Shown here: positions 15,030 through 22,062 of the stretch, piece after piece
Layout of the letters: every line of letters starts with the position of its first letter
How positions within the stretch are numbered: position 1 is the stretch's first letter
Position numbers and translations under genes: made by a program
Source: Desulfobacterales bacterium
Lineage (GTDB): Bacteria; Desulfobacterota; Desulfobacteria; Desulfobacterales; UBA2174_A
Length of the DNA: 24,268 nucleotides
Assembly (NCBI GenBank): GCA_025454075.1
Contig: JALOPD010000019.1
Span: forward strand, 1-24,268
Reading direction: 5' to 3'
Notes under the pieces: model-generated
Databases searched by the model: none
What the model was told of the DNA's origin: nothing
What the model saw: only the letters and a program-made list of their open reading frames with translations

Positions 15030-15048
15030 ACGTTGAACGCGAAAACGC

Positions 15049-15077
15049 TTGACATCTCCACTGCCGGCTGTTAGCCT
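15049..15077 (+). promoter_or_regulatory. Promoter of the ilvB-leuA operon
   Basis: A perfect TTGACA (15049-15054) is separated by 17 bp from TAGCCT (15072-15077). The -10 box is weak, but the position fits: transcription would start near 15084, about 25 nt before the leader peptide. The result is a leader RNA of roughly 220 nt before ilvB. Confidence 0.6.
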
Positions 15078-15108
15078 GAATCGAATTCGAAAAAAGATTG
15101 GTTGTCGC

Positions 15109-15207
15109 ATGACTCATCGAATCGCCATTATCAACCTTATTAGCCTTATTATCGTCATCGCCGAGGTCATCATCGGCGATGATGACAAAGGGGTGGTAAT
15201 GGCCTAA
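15109..15207 (+). CDS. Ile/Val/Leu-rich leader peptide of the ilv operon attenuator
   Basis: A 32-codon reading frame starts at ATG 15109 and ends at TAA 15205-15207. Fifteen of its 32 residues are branched-chain: nine Ile, four Val and two Leu, most of them clustered between codons 5 and 22 (IAIINLISLIIVIAEVII). Several are encoded by ATT and CTT, codons that the neighbouring GC-rich genes mostly avoid in favour of ATC and CTC/CTG. This is the classic composition of a ribosome-mediated attenuation leader, as known for ilv operons of enteric bacteria. No strong Shine-Dalgarno precedes the ATG, a weak point. The frame is followed by an antiterminator/terminator pair and ilvB. The peptide itself probably has no function beyond being translated. 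Confidence 0.85.
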   Translation: MTHRIAIINLISLIIVIAEVIIGDDDKGVVMA

Positions 15208-15275
15208 GCGCAACCCAAAAGCCAGGAAGCAGAAAATCCGTTACCACCCCCGAAGGCGGTAACGGATTTTTTTTT
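15124..15275 (+). promoter_or_regulatory. Transcription attenuator (alternative RNA structures) of the ilv operon
   Basis: Four elements can be read directly. GCCATTA (15124-15130) can pair with TAATGGC (15197-15203), hiding region 2. TCATCGCCGA (15155-15164) pairs perfectly with TCGGCGATGA (15173-15182), a probable pause hairpin. GGGGTGGTAA (15190-15199), at the end of the leader frame, is a perfect complement of TTACCACCCC (15241-15250): the antiterminator. That pairing excludes the downstream terminator stem (15233-15270). Inferred logic: a ribosome stalled at Ile, Val or Leu codons exposes 15190-15199, the antiterminator forms and ilvB is transcribed. With ample amino acids the ribosome reaches the stop at 15205, covers this strand, and the terminator forms. 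Confidence 0.8.
15233..15275 (+). terminator. Attenuator terminator before ilvB
   Basis: A 13-bp perfect stem, AAAATCCGTTACC (15233-15245) with GGTAACGGATTTT (15258-15270), is followed by an unbroken run of nine Ts (15267-15275, partly in the stem). This is the best intrinsic terminator in the window. It lies 27 bp before the ilvB start, with GGAGA as the ribosome site in between. Confidence 0.9.
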
Positions 15276-15302
15276 AAATGGATTCTACCGGAGACAAACG
15301 CC

Positions 15303-16988
15303 ATGAAGATGACCGGCGCCCAGATCTTGATGACGATGCTGAAACAGGAAGGCGTGGACACGCTGTTCGGGTTCCCTGGAGGGGCCGTGATCGACATCTA
15401 CGACGAACTGGCCCGGACCGACATCCGGCACATTCTCGTCCGGCACGAGCAGGGCGCCGTTCACGCCGCCGACGGCTATGCCCGCGCCAGCGGCAAGGTG
15501 GGGGTCTGCCTGGTCACCTCGGGGCCCGGGGCCACCAACACGGTGACGGGCATCGCCTCGGCGCACGCCGACTCCATCCCGGTCGTGGTCATCACCGGCC
15601 AGGTGCCGACCCACCTCATCGGCAACGACGCGTTCCAGGAAGTGGACATCGTCGGCATCACCCGCCCCTGCACCAAGCACAACTACCTGGTGAAATCCCT
15701 GCCCGACCTCGCCCCCACCCTCAAGGAGGCGTTTCACCTCGCCCGGTCGGGCCGGCCCGGGCCCGTGCTGGTGGACATTCCCAAAAACGTCGCCAACGGC
15801 CGCATCGAGTACCTGCCTCCGGGCGAGAACCGCATACGCCCGTACACGGCGACCCCGCAGCCCCACGCCAAGCAGCTGCGGACCGTGGCCAACCTCATCC
15901 GGGAGGCCCGGCGGCCGCTGATCTTCGCAGGCGGCGGCGTCGTTCTCTCCGGCGGCTCGGAGGAGTTGGCGCGCCTGGCGCGGCGGGCGCAGATGCCGGT
16001 CACCACCTCGCTGATGGGCCTGGGCGCATTTCCCGGCGAGGACCCCCTGTTTCTGGGCATGCTCGGCATGCACGGCACCTATGCCTCCAACATGAGCACG
16101 GGCGCCTGCGACCTGATGCTGGCGGTAGGCGTCCGCTTCGACGACCGCGTCACCGGCAAAACCGACGCCTTCGCCTCCCAGGCCGCCATCGTGCACATCG
16201 ACATCGACCCGACCTCCATCCGCAAAAACGTCCCGGTCAGCGTCCCGGTGGTCGGCGACTGCCGCATCAGCCTGCAGCGGTTGAACGAGCTGATCACCGA
16301 GGAGCAGATGCAGGAGATGGTTTCCCGACGGGCCGAGTGGCTGGAGCGCGTCTCTCTGTGGAAGGCCTCCCAGCCCCTCGCCTACTGCCAGGGGGCCACC
16401 ATCAAACCGCAATACGTGGTGGAACAGGTGCATGCCCTCACGCGGGGCGAGGCCATCATCACCACGGAGGTGGGGCAGAATCAGATGTGGGCCGCCCAGT
16501 TCTACCGGTTCAACCGGCCCAACCATTTCATCACTTCCGGCGGCCTCGGAACGATGGGCTTCGGCCTCCCGGCCGCCATCGGCGCCCAGATCGCCTGCCC
16601 GGAAAAAACCGTGGTGGACATCGCCGGCGACGGCAGCATCCAGATGAACATCCAGGAGATGGCCACGGCGGTCCAATACGGGCTGCCGGTCAAGGTCGTC
16701 ATTCTCAACAACGGCTACCTCGGCATGGTCCGGCAGTGGCAGGAGCTTTTTTACGGCGGCCGCTACAGCGCCACGCGCATGAACCATGCGCCGGATTTCG
16801 TCAAGCTGGCCGAAGCCTATGGAGCGGTGGGCCTGCGGGCCACACGCCCCGATGAGGTCGCACCGGTGCTGAAGGAGGGTCTGGCCCTGCGCCGGCCCGT
16901 GATCATGGATTTCGTGGTGGATGCCGAGGAGAGCGTCTATCCGATGGTGCCGTCCGGTGCGCCGCTCACGGAAATGCTGCTCGTATAG
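15303..16988 (+). CDS. ilvB: Acetolactate synthase (acetohydroxyacid synthase) large subunit
   Basis: The 561-residue thiamine-diphosphate enzyme joins pyruvate with pyruvate (valine/leucine branch) or with 2-oxobutyrate (isoleucine branch). The N-terminal domain holds the catalytic Glu49 in LVRHEQGAVHAADGYAR and TSGPGATNTVTGIASAHADS. The central FAD-binding domain includes VGVRFDDRVTGK. The C-terminal ThDP-binding domain carries GDGSIQMN (Gly442-Asp-Gly) and ILNNGYLGMVRQWQELFY (Asn at 469), and ends PMVPSGAPLTEMLLV. The length and motif order are standard for the catalytic subunit. It is the first structural gene behind the attenuator. The small subunit ilvN starts 16 bp later. Confidence 0.97.
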   Translation: MKMTGAQILMTMLKQEGVDTLFGFPGGAVIDIYDELARTDIRHILVRHEQGAVHAADGYARASGKVGVCLVTSGPGATNTVTGIASAHADSIPVVVITGQVPTHLIGNDAFQEVDIVGITRPCTKHNYLVKSLPDLAPTLKEAFHLARSGRPGPVLVDIPKNVANGRIEYLPPGENRIRPYTATPQPHAKQLRTVANLIREARRPLIFAGGGVVLSGGSEELARLARRAQMPVTTSLMGLGAFPGEDPLFLGMLGMHGTYASNMSTGACDLMLAVGVRFDDRVTGKTDAFASQAAIVHIDIDPTSIRKNVPVSVPVVGDCRISLQRLNELITEEQMQEMVSRRAEWLERVSLWKASQPLAYCQGATIKPQYVVEQVHALTRGEAIITTEVGQNQMWAAQFYRFNRPNHFITSGGLGTMGFGLPAAIGAQIACPEKTVVDIAGDGSIQMNIQEMATAVQYGLPVKVVILNNGYLGMVRQWQELFYGGRYSATRMNHAPDFVKLAEAYGAVGLRATRPDEVAPVLKEGLALRRPVIMDFVVDAEESVYPMVPSGAPLTEMLLV

Positions 16989-17004: not shown

Positions 17005-17493
17005 ATGAACGCGGAAAAACACGTCATGACCATGCTGGTCGACAACGAGCCGGGGGTGGTGTCCCGGGTGGCGGGATTGTTCAGCGGCAAGGGTTTCAAC
17101 ATCGAGAGCATCTGCGGCAGCCCGACGAACGACCCGAAAGTTTCGCGCATCACCATCGTCACCCAGGCCGACGCGCCGGTCGTGGAGCAGATCGAAAAGC
17201 AGCTGCGCAAGCTGGTCAACATCATCAAGCTGCGCAGCCTGAACGGGCCGCGCTGCGTGCGGCGCGAACTCACGCTGGCCTGCATCACCGTCAAGCCGGA
17301 GCAGCGCGCCGAGGTCCTGCGGATCGTGGACCTTGCCGGCGGGAAGATCGTCGACGCGGGTCTCAGCCACCTGATCGTCGAGGTGTCCGGCGAGCAGGAG
17401 GAGGTCCAGACGACCCTGAACCTTCTGCAGCCCTACGGAATCAAGAAGCTCGCGCGCACCGGACCCATTGGGCTGATTCGCGAGCCGAAATGA
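17005..17493 (+). CDS. ilvN: Acetolactate synthase small (regulatory) subunit
   Basis: The protein has 162 residues. An N-terminal ACT domain (VMTMLVDNEPGVVSRVAGLF, SGKGFNIESICGSPTND) normally binds valine for feedback inhibition. A C-terminal domain (RRELTLACITVKPEQRAEVL … TGPIGLIREPK) completes the long ilvH/ilvN type. The ATG at 17005 is chosen because GAGGA precedes it and the conserved N-terminus starts there; the open frame runs upstream only into ilvB. It binds and activates IlvB. A structured palindromic element begins at the base after its stop codon and separates it from ilvC. Confidence 0.96.
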   Translation: MNAEKHVMTMLVDNEPGVVSRVAGLFSGKGFNIESICGSPTNDPKVSRITIVTQADAPVVEQIEKQLRKLVNIIKLRSLNGPRCVRRELTLACITVKPEQRAEVLRIVDLAGGKIVDAGLSHLIVEVSGEQEEVQTTLNLLQPYGIKKLARTGPIGLIREPK

Positions 17494-17684: not shown

Positions 17685-18734
17685 ATGGCGACATTCGATT
17701 TCGGCGGAGTGATGGAAGAAGTGGTGACGGAAGACGAGTTCCCCCTGCAGAAGGCCCGGGAGATCCTGCAGAAAGAGGTGGTGGCCGTCGTGGGCTACGG
17801 CGTCCAGGGCCCCGGCCAGGCCCTCAACATGCGCGACAACGGCATCCGCGTGATCGTCGGCCAGCGCAAAGGAGGGACATCCTGGGAGCGGGCTCTGGCC
17901 GACGGCTTCGCCCCCGGAGAGACCCTGTTTTCGCCGGAGGAGGCCGCCGAGCGGGCCACAGTGATCCAGTATCTGCTCTCCGACGCCGGCCAGGTGGCCA
18001 TGTGGCCGCGGATCAAAGCCTGCCTGAAGGACGGCGACACGCTCTATTTCTCCCACGGTTTCGCCATCGTCTACAAGGACCAGACCGGGATCGTCCCGCC
18101 GACGAACGTCGATGTCGTCCTGGTGGCGCCGAAAGGCTCCGGCCGCACGGTGCGCACCAACTTCCTGGACGGCAGCGGCATCAACGCGAGCTTTGCCGTT
18201 TTCCAGGACGCCACGGGCAGGGCCAAGGAAAAGGCGCTGGCGCTCGGGATCGCCATCGGCTCCGGGTATCTGTTCCCCACCACGTTCGAACGCGAGGTCG
18301 TCAGCGATCTCACCGGCGAGCGCGGGATCCTCATGGGCGCCTTGGCGGGCGTGATGGAGGCCCAGTACGACCTGCTGCGCCGGAACGGCCACAGCCCGAG
18401 CGAGGCCTTCAACGAAACCGTCGAGGAACTGACCCAGAGCCTCATCGGCCTGGTGGGCGCCAAGGGGATGGACTGGATGTTCGCCAATTGCTCCACCACG
18501 GCCCAGCGCGGGGCGCTGGACTGGGCCCCCCGCTTCCGGGACGCGGTGGCGCCGGTGTTCGCGCAGCTCTACCAGCGGGTCAAGAGCGGCGAGGAGACGC
18601 GGCGCGTCCTGCAGGCCAACAGCACCCCCGACTACCGCGAGAAGCTCGACAAGGAGCTCGCGGCGATGCACAACTTGGAAATGTGGCGTGCGGGGGCCGC
18701 CGTGCGCTCGCTGCGGCCGGAAAACCGCAAGTAA
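17685..18734 (+). CDS. ilvC: Ketol-acid reductoisomerase (NADP+), Bacteroidetes-type variant
   Basis: The 349-residue enzyme isomerises and reduces acetohydroxyacids to 2,3-dihydroxyacids. The Rossmann motif reads GYGVQGPGQALNMRDNG instead of the more common GYGSQGHAQALNLRDSG. The cofactor loop GQRKGGTSW fits NADPH. The HGF motif has His124 (YFSHGF), and the metal-binding part includes Asp208 and Glu212 (DLTGERG) and AFNETVEELTQSLIG. The C-terminus MWRAGAAVRSLRPEN and the length above the usual ~330 match the type I remember from Bacteroidetes, so horizontal origin is possible; base composition looks like the neighbours. AAGGAG precedes the ATG. A 191-bp gap holding a palindromic element separates it from ilvN. 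cimA follows after 55 bp. Confidence 0.95.
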   Translation: MATFDFGGVMEEVVTEDEFPLQKAREILQKEVVAVVGYGVQGPGQALNMRDNGIRVIVGQRKGGTSWERALADGFAPGETLFSPEEAAERATVIQYLLSDAGQVAMWPRIKACLKDGDTLYFSHGFAIVYKDQTGIVPPTNVDVVLVAPKGSGRTVRTNFLDGSGINASFAVFQDATGRAKEKALALGIAIGSGYLFPTTFEREVVSDLTGERGILMGALAGVMEAQYDLLRRNGHSPSEAFNETVEELTQSLIGLVGAKGMDWMFANCSTTAQRGALDWAPRFRDAVAPVFAQLYQRVKSGEETRRVLQANSTPDYREKLDKELAAMHNLEMWRAGAAVRSLRPENRK

Positions 18735-18789: not shown

Positions 18790-20400
<1,611 letters not shown>

Positions 20401-20523: not shown

Positions 20524-22062
20524 ATGACCGATCGCGTGATCATCTTCGACACCACCCTGCGGGACGGCGAGCAGAGCCCGGGGGCCAGCATGAACGCTGC
20601 GGAGAAGATGCGGATTGCCATCCAGCTGGAAAAGCTCGGCGTCGACGTCATCGAGGCCGGCTTCCCGGCCGCTTCGGAGGGCGACTTCGAGGCCGTCTCC
20701 CAGATCGCCGGCCGTTTGAAACAATCCGAGGTGGCCGGCCTGGCCCGCGCCGCCCGGCCGGACATCGACCGCGCCTGGCAGGCGATCCGGCATGCGGCGC
20801 GGCCGCGCATCCACACCTTCATCGCGACCTCCGACATCCACCTGGAGCACAAGCTCAAGATGAGCCGCGACGAGGTGGTCCGGGCCGCCGTCGCGGCCGT
20901 GGCCTATGCCAAATCCCTCACGGACAACGTCGAATTTTCAGCCGAAGACGGCTCGCGCAGCGACCGCGACTACCTGTGCCGGGTGTTCGAAGCGGCCATT
21001 GCCGCCGGCGCCACGACCGTGAATCTGCCCGACACGGTGGGGTACGCGATCCCCGGCGAGTTCGCGGAGCTCGTGGGCTACATCCGCCAGCACACCCCCA
21101 ACATCGGCCGGGCCGTGCTGAGCGTCCACTGCCACGATGACCTGGGGCTGGCGACGGCCAACACTCTGGCCGCCATCCACCACGGGGCGCGGCAGGCGGA
21201 GGTGACGATCAACGGCATCGGCGAGCGGGCCGGGAACACCTCGCTGGAGGAGGTGGTGATGGCCCTGCACACGCGCGCCAATTTCCTGAAGTCGGGCACC
21301 CGCATCAAAACCGAGTACATCTACCCGACCAGCCGCCTGGTGAGCATGATCACCGGCCTGCTTGTGCAGCCCAACAAAGCCATCGTCGGCGCCAACGCCT
21401 TCGCCCACGAGGCCGGCATCCACCAGGACGGGGTCCTCAAAAACCCCATGACCTATGAGATCATGAAACCCGAAACCATCGGGTTGAGCGCCAACCGGCT
21501 CGTCCTCGGCAAGCACTCCGGCCGGCACGCGCTACGCACGCAGCTCAAGGACCTGGGCTACGACCTGTCGGACGAAGAGCTGAACCTGGTCTTCGGGAAG
21601 TTCAAGGAGCTGGCGGACAAGAAAAAGCACGTCATGGACGAGGACCTCGAGGCCATCGTCACGGAAGGCATCCTGAGGACCGCGGACGTCTTCGTGCTCG
21701 ATTATCTGCACGTGACGGCCGGGACCACGGTGCTGCCCATGGCGAGCGTGCGGCTCAAGATCAACGGCCGCCCCGCCCAGGATGCCGGCTACGGCAACGG
21801 CCCGATCGACGCCGCCTACAACACGATCGCCAAGCTCACGGGTACGAGCTCCGAGTTGATGCGGTTTTCGATCAGCGCCCTCACCGGCGGCACCGATGCC
21901 ATGGGCGAAGTGACGGTGCGGTTGCGGGAAAACGGGCTTCTGGCCCTGGGCAAGGGCGCCGACCCGGACATCATCACGGCCAGCGCCAAGGCCTACATTA
22001 ACGGGCTGAACCGGCTGGAGTACCTGAAGAGCCACCCGATGCAGGAAGCGGTGGGGCTGTGA
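20524..22062 (+). CDS. leuA: 2-Isopropylmalate synthase
   Basis: The 512-residue enzyme condenses 2-oxoisovalerate with acetyl-CoA, the first committed step to leucine. The barrel opens FDTTLRDGEQSPGASMN, with VDVIEAGFPAASEGDFEAV, metal-binding HCHDDLGLATANTLAA and NGIGERAGNTSLEEVVMAL, and AHEAGIHQDGVLKN. The C-terminal allosteric domain (about residues 390-500) normally binds leucine and includes YGNGPIDAAYNTIAKLTG. The length matches long-form LeuA. The ATG at 20524 follows AAGGAG by 7 bases and starts the conserved sequence; the longer open frame upstream has no conserved residues. It is the last gene of the operon in this window; leuCDB are not here. Two hairpins follow it. Confidence 0.96.
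   Translation: MTDRVIIFDTTLRDGEQSPGASMNAAEKMRIAIQLEKLGVDVIEAGFPAASEGDFEAVSQIAGRLKQSEVAGLARAARPDIDRAWQAIRHAARPRIHTFIATSDIHLEHKLKMSRDEVVRAAVAAVAYAKSLTDNVEFSAEDGSRSDRDYLCRVFEAAIAAGATTVNLPDTVGYAIPGEFAELVGYIRQHTPNIGRAVLSVHCHDDLGLATANTLAAIHHGARQAEVTINGIGERAGNTSLEEVVMALHTRANFLKSGTRIKTEYIYPTSRLVSMITGLLVQPNKAIVGANAFAHEAGIHQDGVLKNPMTYEIMKPETIGLSANRLVLGKHSGRHALRTQLKDLGYDLSDEELNLVFGKFKELADKKKHVMDEDLEAIVTEGILRTADVFVLDYLHVTAGTTVLPMASVRLKINGRPAQDAGYGNGPIDAAYNTIAKLTGTSSELMRFSISALTGGTDAMGEVTVRLRENGLLALGKGADPDIITASAKAYINGLNRLEYLKSHPMQEAVGL

Follow-up and report, generated by a model that had tools for sequence, protein, structure and literature searches.

What occupies the 273-nt gap between topA and the branched-chain amino acid operon of this Desulfobacterales bacterium, and how widely is it shared? 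A reading of the sequence alone had placed a complete ribosome-mediated attenuator in the gap, in front of ilvB-ilvN-ilvC-cimA-leuA. We examined that element in the window (the whole stretch of 24,268 nt that was analyzed) and in its relatives.

The operon and its leader

The gene identities given by the sequence-only reading agree with the NCBIfam assignments, by which the five gene products together provide the synthesis of all three amino acids, isoleucine, valine, and leucine. The genes are as follows.

Upstream of the 273-nt gap: topA, with the plus-strand operon following the gap (NCBIfam)
15303..16988, plus strand: ilvB, acetolactate synthase large subunit, the first regulated gene in our reading (TIGR00118, 835.7 bits)
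17005..17493, plus strand: ilvN, acetolactate synthase small subunit (TIGR00119, NF008864)
17685..18734, plus strand: ilvC, ketol-acid reductoisomerase (TIGR00465)
18790..20400, plus strand: cimA, citramalate synthase (TIGR00977, 726.8 bits, cutoff 450)
20524..22062, plus strand: leuA, 2-isopropylmalate synthase (NF002086, TIGR00973)
3' of leuA: pyrD, convergent (NCBIfam)

The IlvB protein of the window is 76% identical to its best full-length relative (G005) and 81% identical to a 159-residue fragment (G007). The region in front of ilvB contains the following elements.

15049..15077, plus strand: predicted promoter, TTGACA at 15049-15054, a 17-nt spacer, and TAGCCT at 15072-15077 (from sequence)
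15109..15207, plus strand: leader peptide frame MTHRIAIINLISLIIVIAEVIIGDDDKGVVMA, 32 codons and TAA, with 15 Ile/Val/Leu residues (from sequence; I/L/V-rich in relatives)
15124..15136, plus strand: region 1, located within codons 6-10 and forming the 5' side of the protector (anti-antiterminator) helix (12 of 13 bp paired with 15191-15203)
15152..15185, plus strand: inner hairpin, 15152-15164 with 15173-15185 (13 bp in the minimum-energy fold)
15190..15203, plus strand: region 2, partner of region 1 or region 3, in the last codons of the frame (from pairing)
15238..15250, plus strand: region 3, antiterminator partner of region 2, overlapping the 5' arm of the terminator (13 bp with 15190-15202)
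15233..15275, plus strand: intrinsic terminator 3:4, 13 bp (15233-15245 with 15258-15270) and nine Ts (from sequence and covariation)

The four strands give three mutually exclusive helices, 1:2, 2:3, and 3:4, the last two sharing positions 15238-15245. The promoter, the 32-codon frame, and the terminator with its nine Ts are present as the sequence-only reading had described them. The Ts occupy 15267-15275, and four of them also base-pair within the terminator stem. The 10-base antiterminator pairing that had been reported, 15190-15199 with 15241-15250, is exact, but the 2:3 helix extends over 13 bp (15190-15202 with 15238-15250), including one G-U. By sequence, the attenuator is indeed complete; region 1, which a full attenuator requires, and the inner hairpin had been overlooked. 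The inner hairpin sits within the 1:2 helix and, by eye, is also present in relatives.

A second segment, TTATTAGCC (15137-15150), directly follows region 1, is well conserved, and is also able to pair with region 2. It looks like a second copy of region 1, and a deletion in one relative (L084) seems to fuse the two.

The fold of 15084-15302 had a z score of -4.45, equaled by none of 200 shuffles. The duplex between region 3 and the leader reached -25.4 kcal/mol compared to a shuffle mean of -11.8 kcal/mol, and none of 60 shuffles equaled it. The I/L/V richness of the frame was matched by 5 of the 482 start-to-stop frames of 20 to 50 codons in the window, a count that includes nested starts and may include the leader's own among the 5. 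A scan of the window with consensus promoter and terminator models called neither the leader promoter nor its terminator, and no clear Shine-Dalgarno sequence was found 5' of the leader frame in the window.

Homologous leaders

An IlvB scan of genome contigs supplied the best 80 loci among the matches listed, and a script was run over 79 of them. Four (L001, L003, L004, and L009) had a leader peptide like that of the window and a T run. Fifteen other loci passed a loose I/L/V filter and were judged by eye to lack the shared ending. Three more leaders (L081, L083, and L084) were obtained by a family search. A covariance model, R1, was built from these seven leaders and the window, which as one of the 8 training rows matches R1 by construction. 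When run over 45 sources, R1 also detected the element in L002 and L005, where it lies 5' of ilvD.

In the order to which L001 belongs, R1 matched 333 of 389 genomes (E ≤0.01, strict filters), with some of the weaker matches possibly being to the terminator only. We took the sampled order to be Desulfobacterales because Desulfamplus (L012; genome G340 of the order draw) is placed there by NCBI. The leaders examined below are 119 from the order, chosen with R1 from 115 of the 333 genomes (mostly the best-scoring ones), plus the window. We excluded two loci, L128 and L130, as mainly terminator matches that lack an I/L/V frame; together they make up four rows, and their genomes are not in the order list. 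In A5, echoes of the hairpin on the reverse strand were also left out.

Named loci led to 20 genomes, of which three also belong to the order draw. Nine of the 20 matched R1 at E ≤0.01; in two of the 9, G400 and G401, the match covers little beyond the terminator. R1 had no match in Geobacter, Magnetospirillum, Sideroxydans, a gammaproteobacterium, and 7 others of these 20 genomes. In a draw of 395 genomes from the phylum, 31 matched at E ≤1e-6. Fifteen of these were shared with the order sample and 16 were not, and some of the 16 may be members of the order that are missing from the order draw. A similarity search of plasmids with the leader returned nothing.

Of 118 order leaders, 111 have a TTGAC motif 25 to 90 nt 5' of the leader start, compared to 5.3% of shuffles, and in 86 of the 111 it was located at -57 to -64. 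The -10 hexamer is poorly conserved: a two-hexamer score of at least 9 was reached in 33 of 118 order leaders and in 14.8% of shuffles. Most order leaders have no Shine-Dalgarno-like 4-mer upstream (35 of 119 do). The duplex of region 3 with the leader had a median z score of -4.0 in the 119 order leaders, and no shuffle was as good in 92 of them. The same was true for 16 of 21 leaders outside the order sample.

Covariation of the competing helices

All three competing helices covary. Alignment A4 comprised 96 sequences (95 from the order and L125), and its fitting used 1:2 and 3:4 but took no account of 2:3. In it, the 2:3 helix was paired in 95.6% of cells, with 6 of 13 pairs changed on both sides. 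The corresponding values were 99.1% and 4 of 13 for 3:4, and 89.1% and 9 of 12 for 1:2. None of 500 shuffles reached any of five measures for any of the helices, in a control that ignores the relatedness of the sequences, and slid partners were paired in at most 58% of cells. One position changes in step across regions 2, 3, and 4. The 1:2 pair formed by columns 27 and 190 was unpaired in 50 of the 96 sequences. With the first 8 rows only, covariation was weaker, with 50 and 7 of 500 shuffles having at least as many pairs in which both sides changed. The shuffles of the fold and of the duplex, together with the covariation of the helices, reject a chance origin of the element.

The sequence-only reading had proposed that covariation of the three helices and conserved Ile/Val/Leu richness be sought in related leaders, and that homologs keeping the terminator without the frame or the antiterminator pairing would count against an attenuator. 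The helices covary across the 96 homologs, and the richness was found in 119 of 119 order leaders. As to the homologs that would count against it, the opposite was seen: the frame was present in all 119 and 2:3 was paired in 95.6% of cells. The latter comparison is not blind, because the leaders were found with a model of the whole element and the terminator-only L128 and L130 had been set aside. Selection by R1 therefore makes loss of the frame hard to see among the examined leaders; the results on phase, codons, and stops are less exposed to this bias than is the presence of the frame.

Position of the stop codon and choice of codons

The leader frame is 38 to 63% I/L/V (median, 50%) in the 119 order leaders and at least 40% in 116 of them. 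On average, the first Ile, Leu, and Val codons are found at positions 5.4, 7.6, and 12.3, respectively. The stop codon lies within region 2 in 72 of the 119 leaders and ends 1 to 12 nt 3' of region 2 in the remaining 47; the terminator arm begins 20 to 45 nt beyond the stop. Among the 21 leaders outside the order sample, the stop was located in region 2 in 7, no more than 12 nt after it in 12, and just before it in 2.

In the window and its relatives, region 2 carries stop codons in two phases. The frame enters region 2 in these phases in 53 and 43 of 96 leaders, and the third, stop-less phase is never used. The phase changed at least 5 times on an IlvD tree (48 rows) and at least 7 times on an IlvB tree (38 rows), both quick trees scored with a strict phase label; a looser label had given 10 and 9 changes. 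Shuffled labels gave averages of 14.0 (IlvD) and 12.5 (IlvB). Judging from these sequences, it is the place of the stop that is conserved, not the end of the peptide.

These data bear on the alternative that the frame is a gene for a small, functional, hydrophobic (membrane) protein and the hairpin no more than its terminator. In its favor, the peptide has a strongly hydrophobic composition, and conservation is highest at codon position 2, with difference rates of 0.403, 0.305, and 0.431 at positions 1, 2, and 3 (114 leaders). The latter pattern is expected when Ile, Leu, and Val interchange. However, the C terminus of the peptide occurs in two phases that switch repeatedly, and the end of the frame pairs, with covariation, with an arm of the terminator. 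Phe (1.3%), Met (1.4%), and Trp (0.3%) are scarce beside Ile, Leu, and Val, which make up 51% of the order leaders; Thr accounts for 2.0%. Moreover, 118 of the 119 order leaders precede a branched-chain gene, the remaining one being cut by the end of its contig. We consider a functional protein very unlikely.

Codon usage was evaluated in the leader codons 5' of region 2, with the gene immediately downstream at each of 116 loci as the baseline. CTG was seen 23 times among the Leu codons (248 expected), as opposed to 268 for CTT (111 expected), 189 for CTC (91), and 52 for CTA (17). For Ile, ATT was seen 460 times (231 expected) and ATC 212 times (399). For Val, the counts were 175 for GTC (106 expected), 126 for GTA (51), and 34 for GTG (109). 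The rare codons ATA (47 seen, 88 expected), TTA (28 and 33), and GTT (29 and 97) were not enriched, and the bias is more than a plain preference for rare codons. RNA structure may account for part of it. In the leader of the window, both Leu codons are CTT, and 6 of the 9 Ile codons are the common ATC. In the accessible part of their paper, Elf and Ehrenberg describe attenuator codons as those read most supply-sensitively and report that a change from CUA to CUG in a leu leader cut sensitivity (PMC1183508). The bias found here is in line with what that text describes for attenuation control codons (PMC1183508).

Computed folding and the proposed mechanism

A ribosome was represented by masking 15 nt upstream and 13 nt downstream of the first P-site base, a footprint of our choosing. 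In the window, before region 3 is present, the probability that region 2 is paired upstream was 0.96 without a ribosome and 0.00 to 0.01 with a ribosome at codons 10-12. Before region 4 is present, the probability of 2:3 was 0.86 without a ribosome, 0.80 to 0.87 with one at codons 2-25, and 0.00 with one at any of codons 27-33, the last of which is the stop. With the whole transcript made, 3:4 had a probability of 0.91 without a ribosome and 0.90 with a ribosome at the stop. Stalls at codons 10-13 (Leu, Ile, Ser, and Leu) gave 2:3 a probability of 0.85 to 0.86; the values were 0.74 at Ile14, 0.80 at Val16, and 0.74 at Glu19. For stalls at Ile 5, 7, 8, 15, 17, 21, and 22 and at Val 20, the terminator was favored at equilibrium. 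Val 29 and 30 are computed to be positions where a stalled ribosome would give termination.

The same pattern was examined in the 119 order leaders. Without a ribosome and before region 3, region 2 was computed to be paired upstream with a probability of at least 0.5 in every leader (median, 0.87); with a ribosome on the I/L/V codons, the mean was only 0.56. The probability of 2:3 before region 4 was at least 0.5 in 117 of the 119, and in the window this held with or without a stall. A ribosome bound at the stop was computed to block 2:3 in 117 leaders, with region 3 left unmasked. The I/L/V share of codons was 58% upstream of the blocking zone (1659/2883) as opposed to 20% inside it (118/589).

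At full-length equilibrium, the terminator was favored in 113 of the 119 leaders without a ribosome and in all 119 with a ribosome at the stop; six leaders favored 2:3 even without a ribosome. A stall position giving 2:3 a probability of at least 0.5 existed in only 39 of the 119 order leaders, and in 2 of the 21 outside the order sample. Since only 39 of 119 switch at equilibrium, the decision in most leaders must be kinetic. A kinetic decision is part of the standard attenuation model.

We conclude that the leader of the window is very probably a translation-coupled (class I) transcription attenuator sensing charged Ile-, Leu-, and Val-tRNA. The grounds for this conclusion are the anatomy of the sequence, its conservation and covariation, the placement of the stop, the codon bias, and computed folding. 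Transcription would start slightly 3' of 15077, and translation of the leader would begin at 15109. When Ile, Leu, and Val are ample, the ribosome would reach the stop and occupy region 2, 3:4 would form, and RNA polymerase would halt on reaching the run of Ts. Under shortage, the ribosome would stall in the I/L/V run (codons 5-22), where it would disturb or cover region 1, to the fullest extent at codons 10-12, and leave region 2 free. The free region 2 would then capture region 3 before region 4 exists, and transcription would continue into ilvBNC-cimA-leuA. Without translation, 1:2 would pair first and the terminator would form. Translation of the leader, stalling, readthrough, and a response to amino acids are predictions of this model.

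A metabolite- or ppGpp-binding riboswitch, or a T-box, with an incidental frame could be considered, as some bacterial ilvB leaders bear ppGpp riboswitches according to the accessible part of one survey (PMC10272879). However, Rfam 15, in a comparison that covers Rfam riboswitches only, gave no match at the gathering score in the window and 20 related loci, and the frame, the codon bias, and the placement of the stop are all conserved. With E values up to 10, positions 15040-15310 yielded no riboswitch and no T-box; the 23 Rfam hits below the cutoff, which include His_leader at 15.6 bits (cutoff, 49), contain no ilv leader. We regard a riboswitch or T-box as exceedingly improbable. The lack of a match at the cutoff in the window or the 20 related loci also led us to reject the element as an existing Rfam family. 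A plain intrinsic terminator, or a decayed attenuator that lost amino acid sensing, would agree with the finding that 3:4 varies least of all the parts (pairing in 99.1% of cells) but has next to no likelihood, since regions 1 and 2, for which it has no need, are retained with compensatory changes, as are the frame and the position of its stop.

Genes behind the attenuator

The first recognized gene 3' of the attenuator was ilvD in 73 of the 119 order leaders, ilvB in 43, cimA in 1, and ilvC in 1, as called by tblastn with six reference proteins; the single leader with none is at the end of its contig. In L001, L002, L003, and L005, topA is followed by (ilvD), ilvB, ilvN, ilvC, cimA, and leuA, with the attenuator immediately 5' of the first ilv gene. 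The operon of the window therefore resembles those without ilvD at the head. The sequence-only reading had called an attenuated operon with a citramalate gene less familiar in this lineage. Such an operon is present, but the relatives with enough flanking sequence (the same four loci) share it.

Outside the order sample, the core was found in 17 places, 13 of them 5' of cimA, 2 of leuA, and 2 of ilvB. Four more leaders from the 20-genome set have the core 5' of cimA in 3 cases and of leuA in 1.

Attenuators located directly 5' of cimA outside the order sample are those of L212-L214, L216-L220, L223-L225, L227, and L228. In the cimA-linked attenuators, the match ends approximately 15 to 40 nt from the tblastn-placed start of cimA, and the terminator and the ribosome-binding site therefore almost touch. 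L222 and L226, where the core lies 5' of leuA, have another leader peptide (MNINTINIISGNAVEVLPVVVNLLVLGVYRRA and a near copy).

Several genomes carry two attenuators. In G053 (L197/L198) and G086 (L170/L206), they are found 5' of ilvD and of ilvB; in G582 (L214 and L215), 5' of cimA and of ilvB; and in G203 (L123 and L131), both are 5' of ilvD-like genes. The paired copies suggest duplication at a split of the operon.

Comparison with known attenuators

According to the sequence-only reading, the antiterminator strand inside the end of the frame set this leader apart from known layouts. This did not hold: E. coli thrL and ilvL also have region 2 at the end of the frame, and we rejected the layout as new. 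A duplex scan of six E. coli K-12 leaders located region 2 within the frame for thrL, ilvL, and leuL and downstream of the stop for pheL and hisL. In thrL, region 2 stops 1 nt short of the last base of the stop codon, and in ilvL, 25 nt short of it. The scan is crude and placed region 2 of trpL inside the frame; in the textbook anatomy of trpL, region 2 follows the stop, and the scan is thus wrong there. Like the window, thrL and ilvL have a leader peptide in which the regulated amino acids abound, an antiterminator and a terminator that exclude each other, and region 2 in the end of the frame. The window differs from them in the sequences of the leader peptide and helices and matches no Rfam leader family at the cutoff. 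Unlike thrL and ilvL, leaders of its type occur in Desulfobacterales and in other genomes of the phylum draw.

As far as the accessible text of two papers goes, the ilvBNC attenuator of C. glutamicum (ilvB-II motif) is similar to the window in having an Ile/Leu/Val leader peptide, a terminator, an antiterminator, and an anti-antiterminator (PMC11857589, PMC10272879). Its control codons are given there as CUU and GUA (PMC11857589), both of which are also enriched in the order leaders. Its peptide, at 15 residues (PMC11857589), differs from the 32-residue peptide of the window, it belongs to a different lineage, and the window has no Rfam match.

The part of PMC10272879 available to us also describes the ilvB-OMG motif (41 representatives) and the Leptospira ilvB motif (7 representatives), which resemble the window in their predicted upstream frames, rich in branched-chain codons, 5' of ilvB. 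Compared by description only, their peptides are rich in Thr as well, unlike the order leaders with 2.0% Thr. The motifs described in the available portions of PMC10272879 and PMC8632094 are ilvB-II (Corynebacterium), ilvB-OMG, Leptospira ilvB, and Veillonella ilvD. In these portions we found no placement of any of the four in Desulfobacterales; ilvB-OMG is said to occur in various phyla. Other reports concern a leucine-rich attenuator peptide in S. aureus (PMC5794164) and attenuators in Actinobacteria (PMC1262725). In the literature searched for delta-proteobacterial, Geobacter, and Desulfo- leaders, we found no fitting description; Vitreschak 2004 and Lopatovskaya 2010 may mention one.

Significance of the leader family

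As read from its sequence and those of its relatives, the element in front of ilvB is a real, complete, and conserved branched-chain attenuator. The mechanism is ordinary attenuation of the trp/thr/ilv type, and the novelty lies in the leader family, which has no Rfam 15 match at the cutoff in the window or the 20 related loci and of which the literature searched gave no description. We lean toward the broader view that a single ancestral attenuator, missing from Rfam, serves as the pathway's main switch throughout Desulfobacterales and extends into other lineages of the phylum. It would have kept its place ahead of the pathway while different genes (ilvD, ilvB, cimA, or leuA) came to follow it, and would have been duplicated when the operon split, with its stop held on region 2 by moving between two phases.

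A large bacterial order gains in this element a specific and testable candidate regulator of branched-chain amino acid synthesis. The more than 100 homologous attenuators amount to a natural experiment on stop position, codon choice, and helix competition, and their strong avoidance of CTG bears on the idea of selective charging beyond enteric bacteria.
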